DNA of 64,000 nucleotides from an uncultured Lachnospiraceae bacterium (GTDB lineage: Bacteria; Bacillota; Clostridia; Lachnospirales; Lachnospiraceae), in assembly GCA_947165025.1 (NCBI GenBank), contig CAMUYQ010000005.1, positions 1 through 64,000 on the forward strand, in the 5' to 3' direction. The position numbers were made by a program, and so were the translations under genes. Position 1 is the stretch's first letter. Each line of letters starts with the position of its first letter. The notes below the pieces were generated by a model. The model saw only the letters and a list, made by a program, of their open reading frames with translations. It did not search any database and was not told the DNA's origin. This document shows, one piece after another, positions 55,356 to 64,000 of the stretch.

Positions 55356-56051
55356 TCAGTCGATACCGCGAAGTTCGACATGCCTGATAGTTTTGGAAAG
55401 CTCCTTCACATACTGAAGGAGTTTTTCTTTTGGAACTGCATGAAGGGTCTTGTCGGGAACAAACTCGGATTCCACATAACCCTGGAGGAAATATCGGTCC
55501 GCACCCTCAAGAAGATGAGATATATCTTTGATGATATCTTCGTTTAACAGTTCGTTAACGGCCGTTGTCCTGAACTCGTGGTCTAAAGAGCTTCCGATGA
55601 GAAAATCAATGCTCTCCTTTATCGGCGTAAGCCTGATGTTATCGATACCGCAGGCTCTGCCGTATTCCGGCAGGGATGATTTTATGTCCATAGCCACGTA
55701 ATCAAGAAGCTTTTTGCCGGCAAGCTCCTTAAGCATATCCGGGTTCGTTCCGTTCGTATCAAGCTTTACCTTGTATCCAAGGCCTTTGATAAGACGTATG
55801 AACGAAGGCAGTTCTTTATACAGTGTTGGCTCACCGCCCGTTATGCACACTCCGTCAAGGACAGAGCGCCGCTTGGACAGAAAGCTCAATATGTCCTCAT
55901 CCGTATATGCGCCCCTGTCCGTTGAGGTAACTATGTTCATATTGTGGCAAAAAGGACAGCGCATGTTACAGCCGCCCAGAAAAACGGTGGCCGCAACATT
56001 TCCCGGATAATCGAGCAGTGTTGTTTTTTGAAATCCCTGAATGTTAAGCAT
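55356..56051 (-). CDS. nrdG: Anaerobic ribonucleotide reductase activating protein
   Basis: A 231-residue radical-SAM activase. The cluster motif is CNMRCPFC (CxxxCxxC) near residues 28-35, followed by TGGEPTL. The N-terminal FQKTTLLDYPGNVAATVFLGG is typical of the NrdG2 subgroup, longer than E. coli NrdG. It makes the glycyl radical on NrdD. No nrdD gene is in the window. It runs against its neighbours and ends five bases from the convergent PucR-type gene. Confidence 0.88.
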   Translation of the reverse strand: MLNIQGFQKTTLLDYPGNVAATVFLGGCNMRCPFCHNMNIVTSTDRGAYTDEDILSFLSKRRSVLDGVCITGGEPTLYKELPSFIRLIKGLGYKVKLDTNGTNPDMLKELAGKKLLDYVAMDIKSSLPEYGRACGIDNIRLTPIKESIDFLIGSSLDHEFRTTAVNELLNEDIIKDISHLLEGADRYFLQGYVESEFVPDKTLHAVPKEKLLQYVKELSKTIRHVELRGID

Positions 56052-56069
56052 GAAGAGTTAACCGAAACG

Positions 56070-56264
56070 TCATGAGTCGCAGAAATTTCCGACACTTCCG
56101 TCGGCAAACGGGCTGCCGATATCGCACCGCCCGTGATGATGCACTTCCCGGACAAAGTCTTCGCGTTCGGTCTCGACCCTGTGGATACCTATTCTGCTGA
56201 CGCCTTCTTCGGTCTTTCCGTCGAGCATGCGGATTACTTCTTCAATCTCTGCTTCCGTTGCCAT
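56070..56264 (-). CDS. Small conserved protein upstream of nrdG
   Basis: A 64-residue protein with no signal or membrane segment. An N-terminal acidic helix is followed by SRIGIHRVETEREDFVREV and then HHHGRCDIGSPF, which is rich in potential metal ligands. A GGGAG site stands seven bases before the ATG at 56264. It lies 18 bases upstream of nrdG on the same strand. Similar short proteins occur beside nrdD/nrdG in Clostridia as far as I recall; no function is known. Confidence 0.72.
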   Translation of the reverse strand: MATEAEIEEVIRMLDGKTEEGVSRIGIHRVETEREDFVREVHHHGRCDIGSPFADGSVGNFCDS

Positions 56265-56374
56265 GATCAATCTCCCAAAAAAGTGAATTTGCGTGAAAGT
56301 TGTGTTTTACGTTGATATTATAACATGTTAAGATTATATACAAAAGAACAGTCTCCGGCCAAAAAGGACAGAAC

Positions 56375-56710
56375 ATGGAAACAGAAAAAAACGAGATAAC
56401 ACAGGTAAGTGAAACCGAAGTAACGGAAACCGTTACAGAGGAAACTCAGATCACGGAAACAGAAGAAGATGTGACAAATGAACAGAAAGGTCCGGTATAT
56501 CCGACGCAGCTCTCACTGACGATCAGAACGATAGTCGGAGCTTATGTCATATATCTGGCTTACCAGATAATCACATCTGACGACGAACTCACGCCTTTTT
56601 TGTGGGCAGGGGTCATATTGTTCATAGTTGCGGGGTCTGCGCTGGTGATCATGTCCGTCAAACGCTTCATTTTCGGCGAATATGAAGGTGGGAGACGCGA
56701 CAAGCATTGA
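56375..56710 (+). CDS. Small two-segment membrane protein
   Basis: A 111-residue protein I do not recognise. Residues 1-45 are Thr/Glu-rich (repeats of TETE and TEE type) and probably disordered. Two membrane segments lie at ~50-66 and ~73-95, and the tail is basic. There is no good ribosome site before the ATG. It ends one base before the SRP RNA promoter. Confidence 0.68.
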   Translation: METEKNEITQVSETEVTETVTEETQITETEEDVTNEQKGPVYPTQLSLTIRTIVGAYVIYLAYQIITSDDELTPFLWAGVILFIVAGSALVIMSVKRFIFGEYEGGRRDKH

Positions 56711-56711
56711 A

Positions 56712-56740
56712 TTGACAACATTTACGGCATTTTGTATACT
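56712..56740 (+). promoter_or_regulatory. Strong promoter of the SRP RNA
   Basis: TTGACA (56712-56717), a 17-base spacer and TATACT (56735-56740). Transcription would begin near 56747, at the predicted RNA 5' end. Confidence 0.9.
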
Positions 56741-56746
56741 ACAAAT

Positions 56747-57010
56747 TGCGCAGCCGGGGAAGCAGCGGTTCCTTGAACCTGAAATCCGCTATAGCAGGGG
56801 TGATATCCGGCAGAGGGTGATATCGTGTGGCAGCAGCCCGTCAGGGTATGTGTTGATATCCGGGTCTTGCGCAACAAAGCGCCGTAAACCGTGTCAGGTC
56901 AGGAATGAAGCAGCACTAAGCGGATGTCTTTGTGTGCCGCAAGGGTGCCTGGGTTGAGCATGTCCGGACGACAGCGTACCACACGTGTCATTCGAAGCCG
57001 GATCGCGCAT
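56747..57010 (+). ncRNA. ffs: Signal recognition particle RNA, large bacterial type
   Basis: About 264 bases with an Alu domain, as in Bacillus scRNA. The 5' part has GGGGAAGCAGCGG and CCTGAAATCCGCTATAGCAG; the domain IV hairpin has GTCAGGTCAGGAATGAAGCA, with its GGAA tetraloop and the conserved AGCAGCA. The 3' part has TGCCGCAAGGGTGCCTGGG. Ends are approximate. It scaffolds Ffh for co-translational membrane targeting. In many Firmicutes it lies between tadA and dnaX; here tadA is 4 kb upstream and dnaX does not follow. Confidence 0.93.
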
Positions 57011-57016
57011 TGTAAT

Positions 57017-57101
57017 AAGGAGGGGCCCACGTAGTGGGAGGATGCCTTATTGCACGGCGAGCCCCATCGCCGTCAGGCGATTTGAAACGGGCGAGCCTCC
57101 C
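57017..57101 (+). repeat. Dispersed structured repeat, family E, copy 2
   Basis: Both hairpins of the family. The first has outer stem AAGG/CCTT, extended here to AATAAGG/CCTTATT, and inner stem CCCAC/GTGGG. The second has ATCGCC/GGCGAT enclosed by GCCC/GGGC, where copy 1 has ATCGC/GCGAT and GGCC/GGCC. It lies between the SRP RNA and the Mrr-like gene. Confidence 0.8.
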
Positions 57102-57138
57102 GTTGATACTGAAAACATTGAAAGGTAACCAATAGAAA

Positions 57139-57762
57139 TTGGGAACTACTGCAACAATAATTACAGTCATAGTCGGAATCGTCGTCCTTGTCCTTCTGGC
57201 AGTATGGATCTGGTACATGAAACAGAACAGCGGTGACGATGCGATATTTGACGATATGGAAGGTGCCGAATTCGAAAGGTACTGCGCAGAACTTCTGGAA
57301 GCAAAGGGGTTCGAGAATGTGGAGAACACTCCCGCAAGTCACGATTTCGGTGTCGACATCATTGCGGACAAAGACGGCATAAGTTATGCGATACAGTGCA
57401 AATGCTATTCCGATAACGTTGGCATACGTGCCATTCAGGAGGCATATGCAGGAAAAGATTATTACGACAGCATGGTCGCTGTTGTCATGACAAATCAGGC
57501 TTTCACAAAAACGGCACAGGAGTTTGCCTCAAAGCTTAACGTCATCCTCTGGGACGGAGACTATGTCATGAATCTCATTCATGAAGTAGCACTTCCAGAA
57601 AAGAGGAACATGATGGAGTTTCTCGGAGATATCATCAAGAGATCTCCCGAAAAGACTTCCGAAAAGTCATCTGAAAGATCTTCCGAAAAGAGAAGAGAAA
57701 AAAGGATCAAAAAAGCCGATCTTGATTTTATCGAAGATCCCGATTCGGATTTTTTTGAGTAA
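57139..57762 (+). CDS. Membrane-anchored Mrr-like restriction endonuclease
   Basis: A 207-residue protein. The TTG start is chosen because it gives an N-terminal membrane segment at ~6-27. Residues ~40-150 form an Mrr_cat nuclease domain: FERYCAELLEAKGFENV, then the catalytic Asp in HDFGVDII and QCK in YAIQCKCY, with VGIRAIQEAYAGK after it. The PD-(D/E)xK residues are complete. The C-terminal ~50 residues are Ser/Glu/Lys-rich and low in complexity. It heads a tightly spaced run of six co-directional genes. Confidence 0.84.
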   Translation: MGTTATIITVIVGIVVLVLLAVWIWYMKQNSGDDAIFDDMEGAEFERYCAELLEAKGFENVENTPASHDFGVDIIADKDGISYAIQCKCYSDNVGIRAIQEAYAGKDYYDSMVAVVMTNQAFTKTAQEFASKLNVILWDGDYVMNLIHEVALPEKRNMMEFLGDIIKRSPEKTSEKSSERSSEKRREKRIKKADLDFIEDPDSDFFE

Positions 57763-57776
57763 AACAAAGGATCGAT

Positions 57777-59117
57777 ATGGCAAAAAAGATCTTGATGTTA
57801 ACAAGCACATGGGATGGCGATTACAGCAGGACGATCATCGACGGGGTCCTTGAGAGGATCGGCGATGAGGATATTGAGCTGCACATTTTTAATGCCTATG
57901 ATACTGCAATGGAAGCAGACTATTTTCTCAAGGGCCGTGAGATATACAGGCTCCCTAACCCTGAGAATTACGACGGGATGCTCATTGCTCTTTCGACACT
58001 TCAGTCCGTCAAGTTCGTTGACGAGCTCAATTCCGAATTTCACAGCCATAACAAACCGGTCGTAAGTATTGATACACATGCCGAGAATGTCATATTCTGC
58101 GGCCTTGATAATTATCGCTCCATGTATCAGCTTGTGGAGCATATGGTCACCATTCACGACTGCAGGATATTCAACTATCTCGGAGGACCCGAGGACAATG
58201 CCGAAGCCGCCGACAGGTTCAGGGCGTTTTGCGACTGCCTGAAGGAGCACGGGATGAGAGTCGAAAAGAAAAGGGTTTTGCATAAACATTTCTGGAAATC
58301 CGACGGAATGGAAGCCTACAGGGAATGGAAGGATCTCGGCGTCGGAATGGCAGATGCCGTGATCTGTGCAAACGATTACATGGCTCTTGGATATGTAGAA
58401 GAAGCAAAGAACGACGGGATATCGATCCCCGATTATATAAAGGTTGTCGGTTTTGACAATATCGAAGAGGCACAGAGATATTTCCCTTCCATAACAAGTG
58501 TGAACAGAAACAGAAAAGCACTCGGTTACGAATCAATGGATGCGCTTTTTGAAGCCATGGAAGGCAATACGGAATTCGACACTCGTTTTGTTGAGGGCTA
58601 CATCAATTACAACGAAAGCTGCGGCTGTGAACTGACGAGAGACCTTCGGATCGATTACAACGAAGTGATAGAGATAACAAAAAGAGAGCTGGAGATCGGA
58701 CTTCGTCACAGCTATACGAGACAGTTACTGTTTAAATGCAATTCGGTGGAGGATTATGCCGAGGCATTGAAAAAAAGCAAGGAATATCTGGATATAGAAG
58801 ATGTTGCGTTCAGCCTTAATTCATCATTCTTTGACAAAGACCCGGATTCGGAGAAATGCGGATTTGATGATGAGATGTATCTGTATCACGGAGAAGATAA
58901 AAAGAAGATAAACAGAAAAGAAGAGATGTACCCTGCCGAATGGAGAAAGGATCACAGAGTGTTCCTGTTCGCGTCCCTTCGAAGCAGCGTACAGACATAC
59001 GGATATGCAGTCATGCCCTACAGACGGGACTACTTCGCAAGGTTAAAACACAGGACTTTCATAGAGAGTCTTGCGCTTTCACTGCATAATATGAGTCTCA
59101 GACTCGCTATGAAATAA
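57777..59117 (+). CDS. LacI-type periplasmic-binding-fold sensor without DNA-binding domain
   Basis: A 446-residue cytoplasmic protein. Residues ~3-285 are a LacI/GalR-type sugar-binding fold, with ILMLTSTWDGDYSRTIIDGV at the start and DAVICANDYMALGY and VVGFDNIEEAQ later. The helix-turn-helix normally before this fold is absent. Residues ~290-446 are a helical and mixed region that I cannot assign. In Lachnospiraceae this fold is often followed by GGDEF; here there is none. It is 14 bases after the Mrr-like gene and 15 before nhaC. Confidence 0.8.
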   Translation: MAKKILMLTSTWDGDYSRTIIDGVLERIGDEDIELHIFNAYDTAMEADYFLKGREIYRLPNPENYDGMLIALSTLQSVKFVDELNSEFHSHNKPVVSIDTHAENVIFCGLDNYRSMYQLVEHMVTIHDCRIFNYLGGPEDNAEAADRFRAFCDCLKEHGMRVEKKRVLHKHFWKSDGMEAYREWKDLGVGMADAVICANDYMALGYVEEAKNDGISIPDYIKVVGFDNIEEAQRYFPSITSVNRNRKALGYESMDALFEAMEGNTEFDTRFVEGYINYNESCGCELTRDLRIDYNEVIEITKRELEIGLRHSYTRQLLFKCNSVEDYAEALKKSKEYLDIEDVAFSLNSSFFDKDPDSEKCGFDDEMYLYHGEDKKKINRKEEMYPAEWRKDHRVFLFASLRSSVQTYGYAVMPYRRDYFARLKHRTFIESLALSLHNMSLRLAMK

Positions 59118-59132
59118 AGGGAGGAATGTGTT

Positions 59133-60755
59133 ATGGAAAAGAAGAATTCGGCGATAGTTGCCGGTATCATCTTCGTATTGATGGTTGTTGTCATCAGTGT
59201 TGTCAATTCGGCAGGAGGAGGTTCTTATGAATTTGCCGGATCATTCTGGGCGCTTGTTCCGCCGCTTGTGGCGATCATCCTTGCGCTTGTGACAAAGGAG
59301 GCTTATTCGTCGCTCTTTGTCGGAGTGGTACTTGGAGCTCTTATGGCTTCACAGGTATCTTTTACCGGAACTCTCAACATGGTGACCGTTGAGGGACTTT
59401 CGGATGCTGTTGCGGGAAATGCCGGAATACTGATCTTCCTTGTGATCCTCGGAACGATAGTTGCACTTATTAACAAATCCGGCGGATCGAGAGCATTCGG
59501 TGACTGGGCATCAAAGAACATCAAGACAAAAGTCGGTGCTTCACTTGCGACATTTGCTCTCGGCGTTCTGATATTCATAGACGATTACTTTAACTGCCTC
59601 ACGGTCGGATCCGTAATGTCTCCGATCACTGATTCAAAAAAGATCTCAAGAGCAAAGCTTGCTTACCTGATCGATGCGACAGCGGCACCGGTCTGCATGA
59701 TAGCACCGATCTCATCATGGGCGGCTGCAGTAAGCGGATGCGTAACAAGTGAGAAGTATTCGGGTATCGAGCTGTTTGTAAGAGCGATCCCTTACAATTT
59801 CTATTCGATACTTACATTTGTGTTCATCATCACGATCACGATCCTGGGATTTGATTACGGAAAGATGAAGAAATTTGAAGATAAGGCAGAACTTACCGGA
59901 GATCTCGGTATCTTGGGACTGTCCGATGATGAAGAATTCGAACTTAAAAAAGGCGGACCTTCGGAATCTGTATCAAAGGGAAAGCTTATCGATCTTATCA
60001 TCCCTGTTGTTGTTCTGATAGCGTGCTGTGTATGGGGACTTCTGTTCAACGGTTTTTCTGCCATTGAAGAAGGCGGGATCATCGAAGCATTCTCATCAAC
60101 TGATGCTTATGTCGGACTTCCCTGGGGAAGTATACTGGCACTTGTAGTGATAGTGATATACATGCTCATACGCAGAGTCATGACTTTCCATGAGGCGATG
60201 GAATGTATCCCCAAGGGATTCATGGCAATGGTTCCCGCTATCACGATCCTTACTCTTGCAACTGCACTCAAGAACATGACAAATACTCTCGGAGCAAAGG
60301 AATTTGTCGGTGCAGCGATGGCAAACGCACAGGGACTTCAGTGGGCTCTTCCGGCGATCGTATTTGTTGTTGCATGTCTTGTATCGTTTGCGACAGGTAC
60401 GAGCTGGGGAACTTTCGGTATACTGATCCCGATCGTTTCGGCGATCTTCCCCGAGACAAGTTCACTGTTCTTTGTCGGAATATCTGCCTGTCTTGCAGGA
60501 GCTGTCTGCGGTGACCACTGTTCACCGATCTCTGATACAACGATCATGTCATCGGCAGGAGCGCACTGTAATCACATCAACCATGTGGAGACCCAGCTTC
60601 CGTATGCAGTTTCGGTTGCAGCCATTTCATTTGTCACCTATATATTTGCGGGACTGTTTGACGGTGCCGGCATAACATGGCTGTCCCTGCCGATCGGTAT
60701 CGCACTTGTAATAGCATTCCTTGTATTCATGAAGAAGAGGAGCGCCAAAGCCTGA
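59133..60755 (+). CDS. NhaC-family Na+/H+ antiporter
   Basis: A 540-residue transporter with about 12 membrane segments. Family marks are FIDDYFNCLTVGSVM near residue 150, the GTSWGTFGILIPI block near 425 and CGDHCSPISDTTIMSSAGA near 458. It exchanges Na+ or an organic ion for protons; some relatives move amino acids or lactate/malate. A GGGAGG site precedes the ATG. It sits 19 bases before the motor-protein genes and so could set the ion gradient they use. Confidence 0.9.
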   Translation: MEKKNSAIVAGIIFVLMVVVISVVNSAGGGSYEFAGSFWALVPPLVAIILALVTKEAYSSLFVGVVLGALMASQVSFTGTLNMVTVEGLSDAVAGNAGILIFLVILGTIVALINKSGGSRAFGDWASKNIKTKVGASLATFALGVLIFIDDYFNCLTVGSVMSPITDSKKISRAKLAYLIDATAAPVCMIAPISSWAAAVSGCVTSEKYSGIELFVRAIPYNFYSILTFVFIITITILGFDYGKMKKFEDKAELTGDLGILGLSDDEEFELKKGGPSESVSKGKLIDLIIPVVVLIACCVWGLLFNGFSAIEEGGIIEAFSSTDAYVGLPWGSILALVVIVIYMLIRRVMTFHEAMECIPKGFMAMVPAITILTLATALKNMTNTLGAKEFVGAAMANAQGLQWALPAIVFVVACLVSFATGTSWGTFGILIPIVSAIFPETSSLFFVGISACLAGAVCGDHCSPISDTTIMSSAGAHCNHINHVETQLPYAVSVAAISFVTYIFAGLFDGAGITWLSLPIGIALVIAFLVFMKKRSAKA

Positions 60756-60774
60756 TCCCGTAAGGAGATAAGAT

Positions 60775-62169
60775 ATGTTTAGAAGAAAGTGGTATGAATG
60801 GATACTGACCATAGTTTTTTTCCTCATGGTCGCACTGTGCGTGTATCTTAATCTGTCACCCGATCATAAAGAAAGCATTACGACCATCACGGTAAACGCC
60901 GTGATGTTCGTAATAGTTGCGATAGTTTTTCTGATGGCGGATTTCGGAAGCTTTGCACCAATGAATGCGATCATCAAAGATCTGAAAAACGCCACGGAAA
61001 AGATCCGTTCGGATGCCATGAACGCCCATTCATATCTGTGGGAGCCTTATCAGTCAAGTGATGTCAAGCTGTTCAAGTATGATAAGCTCAATCAGCTTTT
61101 CACGGATTTTATATTCGAACTCAACCGCGAGGATGATGCGGAGAATGCATACTATCGTCCGAGCATCGATGATTTTATCAACGAGGATCTTGTTGATACT
61201 GTCATGCACCGCAATGAGCTCAACCAGGTTCCGGGACTTCTGACCGGACTCGGAATACTCGGAACGTTTATCGGACTGTCGATCGGACTGGAGCACTTTA
61301 ATACAGGAACGACGGCCCAGATGACGGACAGTATCGAACCTCTCATGAACGGTATCAAGGTGGCATTTCACACGTCCATTTTCGGAATGGTGTTCTCACT
61401 TACATTTAATGCGATATACAAGAGAAAACTGTACGAAGGAGAAAGTGCCGTACAGGAATTCTCACGTGCCTTCAAAAGATATGTTCTTCCGGATACGGAA
61501 AACAACGGAATGAACCAGCTCATCTCGCTCCAGTCTGAGCAGCTTGAGGCTATGGACAAAATGTATGTCCGCATGGCCGATGAGCTTGGCAGGATAATAG
61601 AGCCTCAGTTTGACAGACTCGGAAAGATCGTTGCGGAATACGAAACAATCATGGTCAGGAACGAGACCGAGGCGATAAGGCAGATCGTGGAAACGTTCAT
61701 CAACGAGATGAATACTTCTCTCGGAAACAGCTTCTACCAGCTCAGTGAATCTGTAAATGAGCAGTACAGGTCACAGAAGGAAACAGCCGATCTGATGACG
61801 GATCTGCTCAAGACAACAGGAAGCAGTACGGCAACGCTTCATACCATCAACCACGAAACAGAGAAGCTTGTCACAACACTTAACAGTTATACAGCAAGCA
61901 TACAGACGATCCAGAACGAACTTCAGAGAACGCTAGCCGGTCTTTCATCCGAAGATAAATCGGCACGTGATCTTATTGTTCAGGAGAAGAACATGCTCAT
62001 AGAGCAGGGCAACATGATCTCGGAATTCCGCAAGACGATCGCGGATATCGGAAAGCATTCCGCCGAGACAAATGAACATGTAAATGAAGCACTTGAAGAG
62101 ATAACAAACGGAATCGACTACATGAAGAAGCTTACGGATAAAAGGAATCAGGCAGGCGGCAAGATCTGA
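60775..62169 (+). CDS. ZorA-like MotA/TolQ/ExbB-family ion channel with long tail
   Basis: A 464-residue stator-type protein. Membrane segments are at ~9-27, ~38-56, ~148-170 and ~198-220. The third contains PGLLTGLGILGTFIGLSIGL, the hallmark of ZorA-like proteins, and the fourth has VAFHTSIFGMVFSL. Residues ~240-464 form a long, mostly coiled-coil cytoplasmic tail, as in ZorA and unlike ExbB or TolQ. It would form a pentameric ion channel around the ZorB-like partner, whose gene overlaps its stop codon. Confidence 0.85.
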   Translation: MFRRKWYEWILTIVFFLMVALCVYLNLSPDHKESITTITVNAVMFVIVAIVFLMADFGSFAPMNAIIKDLKNATEKIRSDAMNAHSYLWEPYQSSDVKLFKYDKLNQLFTDFIFELNREDDAENAYYRPSIDDFINEDLVDTVMHRNELNQVPGLLTGLGILGTFIGLSIGLEHFNTGTTAQMTDSIEPLMNGIKVAFHTSIFGMVFSLTFNAIYKRKLYEGESAVQEFSRAFKRYVLPDTENNGMNQLISLQSEQLEAMDKMYVRMADELGRIIEPQFDRLGKIVAEYETIMVRNETEAIRQIVETFINEMNTSLGNSFYQLSESVNEQYRSQKETADLMTDLLKTTGSSTATLHTINHETEKLVTTLNSYTASIQTIQNELQRTLAGLSSEDKSARDLIVQEKNMLIEQGNMISEFRKTIADIGKHSAETNEHVNEALEEITNGIDYMKKLTDKRNQAGGKI

Positions 62170-63080
62170 TGAGAAGAGCATACAGCCGAAAGAGGGATGA
62201 GGAAACTTCATACTGGCTGTCGTACTCGGACATGATGGCGGGACTGCTTCTTTGCTTTGTCCTGATAATCTCGCTTACCGTTTTAAGATCCAAGGTCCAA
62301 TACGATCAGAAACAGAACGAACTGCTCGGTAAGGAGCAGGAACTGATCATACAGTCGGAGGAACTTGAGAACGAGAGACTTACGATAGAAGAGCAGGGTG
62401 CAAAGCTCAACGCACAGGAGCTGAAGCTTTCCGAGCAGGAAGGAAGACTTCTGGCACAGCAGAAAAAACTCGAAGAACAGTCACAGCTCCTCAAGGACCT
62501 TGAGAAACTCATGGGTGAGCAGCAGGCCAAGCTCGACAATATTATCGGTATCAGGAGTGAGCTTATCGAAGCATTAAAAGACGAGTTCAAGAATTCTTCT
62601 CTGAGCATAGCGGTTGACGAGAAGACCGGTGCCATCACGATGGATTCAAACATACTTTTTGAGTACAACAAATCGATGCTCAAATCAGGCGGTAAGGATT
62701 TTCTCGGAGAGTTCATGCCCAGGTATTTAAAGATCCTGCTCAGCCCCAAGTATAGGAGTTATATATCCGAGATAGTGATCGAAGGACACACGGATACGGA
62801 CGGAGATTATCTGTCAAACCTTAATCTGTCACAGCAGCGCGCTTATTCCGTGGCGGATTACTGTACACGAAAGAACAGCGATTTTCTGACGGACAGGGAG
62901 AAAGAGGAACTTGAAAAGGTACTGTCAACTGTCGGAAAATCATTCAGCGAACCTATCCTTACACCTGACGGAGAGGTTGATGCGGATGCTTCAAGAAGAG
63001 TGGAGATCCTTTTCAGATTGAGGGATGAGGAGATGATCCGCGAAATGATGGAAATACTCAACGACACATCAGCAAGATAG
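62169..63080 (+). CDS. ZorB-like protein: membrane segment plus OmpA-like domain
   Basis: A 303-residue partner of the channel. The N-terminal segment WLSYSDMMAGLLLCFVLI carries the Asp expected to bind the driving ion, as in MotB and ZorB. A heptad-rich Gln/Glu/Leu coiled coil spans ~45-130. The OmpA-like peptidoglycan-binding domain (~150-295) shows EGHTDTDGDYLSNLNLSQQR. In a Gram-positive this would anchor to the thick wall. The start codon overlaps the upstream stop (TGATG). Confidence 0.87.
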   Translation: MRRAYSRKRDEETSYWLSYSDMMAGLLLCFVLIISLTVLRSKVQYDQKQNELLGKEQELIIQSEELENERLTIEEQGAKLNAQELKLSEQEGRLLAQQKKLEEQSQLLKDLEKLMGEQQAKLDNIIGIRSELIEALKDEFKNSSLSIAVDEKTGAITMDSNILFEYNKSMLKSGGKDFLGEFMPRYLKILLSPKYRSYISEIVIEGHTDTDGDYLSNLNLSQQRAYSVADYCTRKNSDFLTDREKEELEKVLSTVGKSFSEPILTPDGEVDADASRRVEILFRLRDEEMIREMMEILNDTSAR

Positions 63081-63089
63081 GAGAAGAAA

Positions 63090-64000
63090 ATGCAGAGAGC
63101 TTTGTTTATCGGCGGGACCGGAACGATTTCGATGGCGATCACACGCGCACTTGCAAAAAGCGAAGACTGGGATCTGTATCTTATCAACAGGGGAAACAGA
63201 GAGGATGAGATACCCGAAAATGTTCATCTTATCAGTGCGGATATAAACGACGAGGAGATGATAGACGAGATCCTTGACGGAAGGCATTTTGACTGTGTCT
63301 GTGATTTTATCGGGTTTACCCCGGATCAGGTCGAGAGAGACTACAGGCTCTTTCGCGGCAGATGCTCCCAGTTCATATACATCAGCTCGGCATCGGCTTA
63401 CAACAAGCCCTGCAGGAGCCATATCATTACAGAGGGAACGGCTCTTGCCAATCCGTTCTGGGAATATTCAAGAAACAAGATATACTGCGAAAGCTTTCTG
63501 ATGGATAAATACGAAAAAGAAGGTTTTCCGGTTACGATAGTGCGTCCGAGTCATACTTACGACGAGAGGAGTATTCCGCTCGGAGTGCATGGCGACAGGG
63601 GAAGCTGGCAGGTGATCAGGCGTATGCTTGAAGGAAAGCCTGTTATAGTCCAGGGGGACGGAACAAGTCTTTGGACGATGACTTTCAATGAGGATTTTGC
63701 CAAGGGATTCATCGGACTTATGGGCAACTGCCACGCTATCGGTGAGAGCTTCCAGATCACAAGCGATGAGACGCTTACGTGGAATCAGATATACGAAGCC
63801 ATCGCGGATGCGCTGAATGTTGATTTTATTCCTTATTATGTTGCGTCGGAGTTTCTTGCGTCCGTGAGTGATTACGATTATTTCGGATCTCTTCTCGGAG
63901 ACAAGTCCAACTCGGTTGTGTTCGACAACAGCAAGATCAAGCGTATCGTTCCCGGATTTGAGTGCACCGTAAGGTTCGACCAGGGTGTCAGAAGGGCTAT
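63090..64000 (+). CDS. NAD-dependent epimerase/dehydratase (cut by window end)
   Basis: The first ~303 residues of a short-chain dehydrogenase/epimerase-type protein; no stop occurs before the window ends. The NAD motif is LFIGGTGTISMAITR at the N-terminus. The catalytic region has SSASAYN and, further on, YSRNKIYCE in the YxxxK position. RPSHTYDER and the later NEDFAKGFIG match NAD-sugar epimerases. A TAGGAG site stands before the ATG. It is nine bases after the ZorB-like gene, so it is probably in the same operon. Confidence 0.85.
   Translation, partial: MQRALFIGGTGTISMAITRALAKSEDWDLYLINRGNREDEIPENVHLISADINDEEMIDEILDGRHFDCVCDFIGFTPDQVERDYRLFRGRCSQFIYISSASAYNKPCRSHIITEGTALANPFWEYSRNKIYCESFLMDKYEKEGFPVTIVRPSHTYDERSIPLGVHGDRGSWQVIRRMLEGKPVIVQGDGTSLWTMTFNEDFAKGFIGLMGNCHAIGESFQITSDETLTWNQIYEAIADALNVDFIPYYVASEFLASVSDYDYFGSLLGDKSNSVVFDNSKIKRIVPGFECTVRFDQGVRRA

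Follow-up and report, generated by a model that had tools for sequence, protein, structure and literature searches.

The right-hand end of the window, as we call the whole 64,000-nucleotide stretch analysed here (positions 1 to 64,000 of contig CAMUYQ010000005.1 from an uncultured gut bacterium of the Lachnospiraceae), raises the question of what a pair of ZorA and ZorB homologues does outside a standard Zorya anti-phage system. Here the two genes are adjacent, and stand among six rightward genes that encode, in order, a membrane-anchored Mrr-type nuclease-fold protein, a LacI-fold protein, an NhaC-family antiporter, ZorA, ZorB and an epimerase. The initial annotation of this locus had proposed that the Mrr-like protein is the effector of the motor. 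In our analysis, Pfam was used to name the families of the window genes, PADLOC for the Zorya models and NCBIfam for curated cut-offs. Our results point to a different answer. The core of the locus is probably a free-standing, two-gene rotary motor of the ZorAB type, with pore and wall-binding residues intact, placed in a clade-specific, housekeeping-like unit, and the Mrr-type enzyme is probably a local neighbour rather than a fixed partner of the motor. This reading is based on homology, intact residues, gene order and distribution, from which we infer what is said below on stoichiometry, ion, trigger, output and transcription.

The zorA-like gene (60775..62169, + strand) encodes a 464-residue channel subunit of the MotA/TolQ/ExbB type (Pfam MotA_ExbB, 4.4e-6; PADLOC ZorA1, 1e-23), and the zorB-like gene (62169..63080, + strand) a 303-residue subunit (Pfam OmpA, 1.3e-9; PADLOC ZorB1, 4.3e-73). 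The best sequence relatives of both proteins in the PDB were Zorya proteins (9.6e-16 for ZorA, and 6.3e-18 for ZorB against 8vvi_A), and the presence of a ZorAB-like motor, as annotated, is thus supported by homology. Flagellar MotAB and the ExbBD and TolQR complexes belong to the same superfamily of ion-driven membrane motors (PMC12505986). Nevertheless, when the predicted model of ZorA, which is of modest confidence (mean pLDDT 64.1), was used in a fold search, ZorA structures ranked first (2.2e-8), clearly ahead of TolQ (2.0e-3), ExbB or MotA. The C-terminal tail of ZorA, about 225 residues long, is all-helical in the model, with low confidence in the tail itself.

We then find the residues expected of such a motor. 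ZorA T164 and S201 are unchanged in seven of seven diverse proteins, Klebsiella ZorA1 and E. coli ZorA2 among them, and the pore aspartate of ZorB, D21, is invariant in all 28 aligned proteins, including Klebsiella ZorB1. In the wall-binding domain, D209, R224, R276 and R277 are likewise invariant over the 28, and H207 is nearly so. This OmpA-like domain keeps the GHTD, LSQQR(A) and SRR stretches, as judged by eye against the residues named in PMC11890865 as those that matter in Zorya. Between the membrane helix and the wall-binding domain lies a Gln/Glu-rich linker, which is longer than that of Klebsiella ZorB1 and makes the whole protein longer.

Taken together, the pair resembles the ZorAB of Zorya types I and II (PDB 8QYD, 8VVN, 8VVI) in its homology, its pore aspartate, the Thr and Ser of ZorA, the OmpA-like wall-binding domain and the long helical ZorA tail. 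It differs from them in that ZorA is shorter (464 residues against 729 and 550 in two yardsticks), that no ZorC, no helicase part of ZorD and no full ZorE were found, as described below, and that both proteins fall short of the curated NCBIfam cut-offs (best score for ZorA 74.4 of 100 bits; ZorB1, 85.6 of 400). A cytoplasmic beta-sheet is reported in PMC12505986 as unique to Zorya-type A subunits; the predicted ZorA model, with a mean pLDDT of only 64.1, has no strands. The pair in the window is a relative of ZorAB and not a Zorya type I or II locus.

Concerning the Zorya effectors, ZorC, sought as EH_Signature, was found in none of the 37 genomes of the genus. As 14 control genomes were silent too, the search was checked against a plasmid that carries an annotated ZorC, and this positive control was detected (1/1). 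The ZorD model matched 30 of the 37 genus genomes and also 11 of the 14 controls. In the genome of the window, its only match was the Mrr domain at 57247-57588, with no helicase part; other genus members did have matches to SNF2-type parts, at different sites. ZorE gave short matches only, in 4 of 37 genomes (best 3.1e-6), including a 60-residue match at 4.3e-4 in the genome of the window. Neither ZorF nor ZorG was listed in PADLOC scans of 16 local proteins, no genome-wide search for them having been made. These results agree with the earlier statement that this is not a standard Zorya locus, as ZorC is absent and the match to ZorD is the Mrr domain alone, and on the same results the idea of a displaced Zorya system elsewhere in the genus was rejected. 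Beyond the window, where effectors had been suggested as something to look for within 10 kb, none was recognised on reading the translations of 16 kb (to contig position 80000), of which the PADLOC family search covered only the first four proteins.

Whether the motor keeps the same neighbours was examined in relatives. A scan of contigs gave 34 loci, 13 of which form the close clade of the window (ZorB 86-90 percent), or 11 once duplicates are removed. With denominators counted from the flank lengths of each locus, so as to include those that reach far enough, the mrr-like gene lies upstream in 9/9 distinct loci of this clade, the LacI-fold gene is present in 8/9, and nhaC and the epimerase gene in 10/10 each. 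The locus lacking the LacI-fold gene (L015, 6530-8573, between mrr and nhaC) is otherwise syntenic. The sole close-clade genome without an Mrr match, G027, has contigs that end inside the LacI-fold gene; its LacI-fold gene, nhaC, zorA and the beginning of zorB are arranged as usual, and so it neither supports nor breaks the linkage. Outer flank genes, such as a PucR gene and a radical-SAM gene on the opposite strand, are syntenic as well where the loci reach, with a looser order downstream of the epimerase; local order alone therefore says little about function in this clade.

Outside the close clade, we pooled the contig scan with 18 stretches from the same genus and 10 from across the family, which gave 38 distinct loci with both genes. 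Neighbours were scored by tblastn at 1e-10 within the flanks examined, 29 of the 38 loci having at least 5 kb on each side. By this test the Mrr gene, the LacI-fold gene and the epimerase gene were found in none of the 38. In other words, beyond the clade the motor pair was always seen without the nuclease in these flanks, an outcome that the initial annotation had named as one that would refute its proposal. An nhaC gene was adjacent to ZorAB in two loci and about 9 kb away in one. In the two (L058, 6834-9338, and L061, 6824-9338, both minus strand) the NhaC-family gene is directly downstream of zorB, with gaps of 21 and 43, the reverse of the order in the window. The stable unit across relatives is ZorAB, and of its operon neighbours in the window only NhaC recurs.

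Several loci were left out of this count: L037, with no ZorB at the cut-off; L009, L012, L068, L072 and L074, as duplicates at 99 percent ZorB identity; and L021, L031, L032 (cut by or near a contig end), L034, L035, L036 and L140, with no ZorA match. The last four encode OmpA-domain proteins of 542-587 residues that resemble the wall-binding domain of ZorB, with no ZorA match in the stretch examined, and those of L034 and L036 have a lipoprotein-like start as judged by eye. A 38 percent match to the same domain was also seen at 1757-2209 of MT837639.1, a 6.5 kb record called Bacteriophage sp.

We also named by Pfam 40 hand-picked proteins adjacent to ZorAB outside the clade, one of them (in L021) from a locus outside the 38. 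They form a miscellany with no recurrent effector family: phosphotriesterase, ABC transporters, kinases, YicC, fructose bisphosphatase, glycosidase, UvrB, ClpB-like, MgtE, an ion channel and others, with 5 of the 40 giving no Pfam match. When ten of the 40 were compared with PADLOC, three matched, all to different families and each at a single locus; their Pfam results had already made them suspect, which is why they were chosen. At L017 (6859-8721) the gene of an AAA_15 ATPase, which partially matches LmuB, shares 4 bases with the start of zorA. At L026 (10900-12399) the gene of an AlbA_2 protein (Schlafen-type, SLFN_AlbA_2) begins 8 bases after zorB. At L131 (11436-14258) a superfamily-1 helicase with a partial match to Mokosh MkoA is encoded 149 bases upstream of zorA.

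The distribution within the genus gave a similar picture. Among the 37 genomes, ZorB was found in 30 and, at 1e-30, NhaC in 35; Mrr was found in 24 at 0.001, some of these matches being weak or partial. Both ZorB and Mrr were present in 20 genomes, ZorB only in 10, Mrr only in 4 and neither in 3, so that the two are uncoupled (Fisher p 0.68), with the reservation that many of these genomes are incomplete drafts and that G027, counted as Mrr-negative, has truncating contig ends. In the other lineage of the genus, the eight genomes with both genes carry them on different contigs, the assemblies being fragmented. Because Mrr is seen with ZorAB in one clade only, is absent from the examined flanks of the 38 other loci and is uncoupled from ZorB in the genus, a role as effector of the motor is not supported. 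Across the family, this type of ZorB was found at 1e-25 in 11 of 160 genomes, one per genus, with ZorA adjacent in 10, including that of the window; the pair is thus common within the genus, while its distribution over the family is patchy.

As for descent, the distances of ZorB and of KsgA over the 24 genus genomes with both sequences are correlated (Mantel r 0.82, reached by 0 of 2000 permutations). This is what largely vertical descent would give, although most of the correlation comes from the division into two clades. Within the close clade the mean distance was 0.115 for ZorB compared with 0.265 for KsgA.

A number of observations weigh against the reading as a free-standing motor with independent neighbours. 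The rank correlation between ZorB and KsgA is 0.73 within the other clade and only 0.16 within the close clade. The distance between the clades is disproportionate for ZorB (0.388 versus 0.376 for KsgA, with within-clade ratios of 0.43 and 0.68), and slow change of ZorB within a clade together with a wide gap between the two makes an ancient exchange or replacement possible, or else a spell of rapid change when the clades parted. The patchy distribution in the family is as for defence genes. Three of the 40 neighbours are defence-like, as single cases of different families. Zorya is described in one survey of metagenome-assembled genomes (PMC10924106) as underrepresented in defence islands, and for this reason the position of the pair outside such an island counts for little. 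The tight gene order of the close clade makes it possible that Mrr and the motor are functionally linked there. Finally, the linkage to NhaC outside the clade comes from two related genomes, and in their relative G017 (L059) a YicC gene follows ZorAB, with no nhaC there.

Taking these points into account, we considered three other explanations. The pair could be an anti-phage motor whose effectors are encoded elsewhere in the genome, which we regard as unlikely though deserving of some weight. In Zorya, ZorAB acts with nucleases (PMC11890865), and the distribution over 11 of 160 genomes would suit such a system. On the other hand, the search, which covered the Zorya effectors, returned no ZorC in the genus, short ZorE matches and no ZorD helicase part in the genome of the window; the genes around ZorAB are ordinary ones, ZorB is strongly conserved within the clade, and ZorAB is described as insufficient for defence in PMC8565338.

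Quite improbable, in our judgement, is a clade-specific variant of Zorya in which ZorAB, on sensing phage damage to the wall, would recruit or activate the Mrr nuclease in the membrane, this taking the place of the Mrr-like end of ZorD. Such a variant would account for the nine of nine upstream mrr genes, for the match of the Mrr domain to the C-terminal part of the ZorD model (945-1063 of 1071, 1.5e-17 in PADLOC) and for a catalytic motif intact in all 16 aligned sequences. However, other Mrr-containing PADLOC models match this domain too, the PucR and radical-SAM genes are equally syntenic, and linkage to ZorB fails both at the loci outside the clade and in the genus at large, where the eight other-clade genomes place the two genes on separate contigs of their fragmented assemblies. 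The six genes might instead form one pathway of envelope sugar or ion homeostasis, in which epimerase, NhaC and motor cooperate. Of the six proteins, NhaC, ZorB and the epimerase show the highest conservation within the close clade (80-90 percent), and no + strand terminator-like site was found between the six genes in a consensus scan. Against this, the epimerase is near none of the 38 ZorAB loci elsewhere, NhaC is adjacent in two, and close relatives of NhaC (71-72 percent) occur in three genomes without a ZorB match, so that we hold such a pathway to be very unlikely.

Returning to the free-standing motor, it would work as follows. Five ZorA subunits would surround two ZorB helices, and ions would pass between D21 of ZorB and the conserved Thr/Ser of ZorA. 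The OmpA-like domains of ZorB would hold peptidoglycan, on a linker whose length would fit a thick wall. When the wall changes, the channel would open and ZorA would turn, together with its helical tail in the cytoplasm, and the tail would hand a signal or force to a partner whose gene does not lie next to ZorAB. In the close clade, the pair has probably become part of a housekeeping-like transcription unit downstream of the signal recognition particle (SRP) RNA gene. NhaC may provide the motor with sodium or keep it in balance; the adjacency of NhaC, on which the sodium reading is based, is a weak hint of such coupling. The proposed link between NhaC and motor gains a little from the two genomes of another lineage with nhaC directly after zorB. 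More broadly, it is possible, though doubtful, that the free-standing ZorAB of Lachnospiraceae and other Clostridia are separate wall-sensing, possibly sodium-driven machines that have their own role apart from phage defence, and that Zorya is the branch of this motor family that acquired nucleases.

In the Zorya and ZorAB literature searched (PMC11890865, PMC12505986, PMC8565338, PMC13192584, PMC10924106, PMC12204202 and PMC9519451, each in part), we found no description of lone ZorAB pairs, though a prior description is possible; the motors are studied there together with their nucleases. ZorAB pairs with no fixed neighbouring effector, under strong constraint in the clade of the window, would allow the function of the motor itself to be tested, could show what Zorya was built from, and would caution that annotation as ZorA or ZorB alone need not mean anti-phage defence.

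The remaining genes of the block are as follows. The six rightward reading frames, with gaps of 14, 15, 19, -1 and 9 bases, agree with the coordinates as first reported, and the family assignments were reproduced with Pfam and PADLOC. The Mrr-like protein (57139..57762, + strand, 207 residues; Mrr_cat, 1.1e-29) has an N-terminal hydrophobic stretch, seen by eye, followed by Mrr_cat at 38-146, and had no sequence relative in the PDB at 0.001 by phmmer. Its D73 and Q86-x-K88 are intact and invariant in 16/16 aligned sequences; D...QxK we take to be the catalytic residues of the Mrr family. It resembles Mrr-type restriction endonucleases (PF04471) in this motif and in the Mrr_cat match, and differs from them by a membrane helix at its N-terminus and in that no target-recognition domain was recognised. 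The LacI/periplasmic-binding-protein-fold protein (57777..59117, + strand, 446 residues; Peripla_BP_3, 1.1e-21) has no DNA-binding domain, and a fold search with its predicted model, of modest confidence (mean pLDDT 61.0), indicated a C-terminal alpha/beta domain. These two proteins are most likely independent neighbours of the motor. The NhaC-family Na+/H+ antiporter (59133..60755, + strand) has 540 residues (Na_H_antiporter PF03553, 7.1e-46). The NAD-dependent epimerase/dehydratase (63090..64000, + strand; Epimerase, 5.4e-19) continues beyond the window to 339 residues, the full length seen in L003, and is a housekeeping-type neighbour.

Past the epimerase, the contig continues with genes whose products we read, on translation, as phosphoglycerate mutase, GNAT, HflX, TatD, KsgA, a TPR protein, GlgB and flagellin. 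A PADLOC scan of ten flanking proteins matched six, in each case through a portion of a large and common family (ABC ATPase, deaminase, histidine kinase, radical SAM, HflX-LeoA and TatD-QatD), and the reading of the region as a defence island was rejected.

Upstream, a feature absent from the initial annotation was identified. A gene for the bacterial large SRP RNA (56746..57010, + strand; Rfam RF01854, 155.1 bits, E 1.3e-25) lies just before the mrr-like gene, between it and a near-consensus sigma-70-type promoter (TTGACA-17-TATACT, 56712..56740, + strand), a consensus match only, with 11 of 12 positions. In the consensus scan, the sole + strand terminator-like site in 56000-64000 was at 56217, upstream of the genes, and none was listed from the SRP RNA promoter to the end of the window. 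This agrees with the reported lack of a terminator in the block, and the operon-like layout that had been claimed is supported. The promoter before the SRP RNA gene is a possible source of read-through into the block. Promoter-like sites in the region numbered 22, against 11.3 expected, and as a weaker match occurs at 57082-57110, both read-through and a start of its own are possible for the block.

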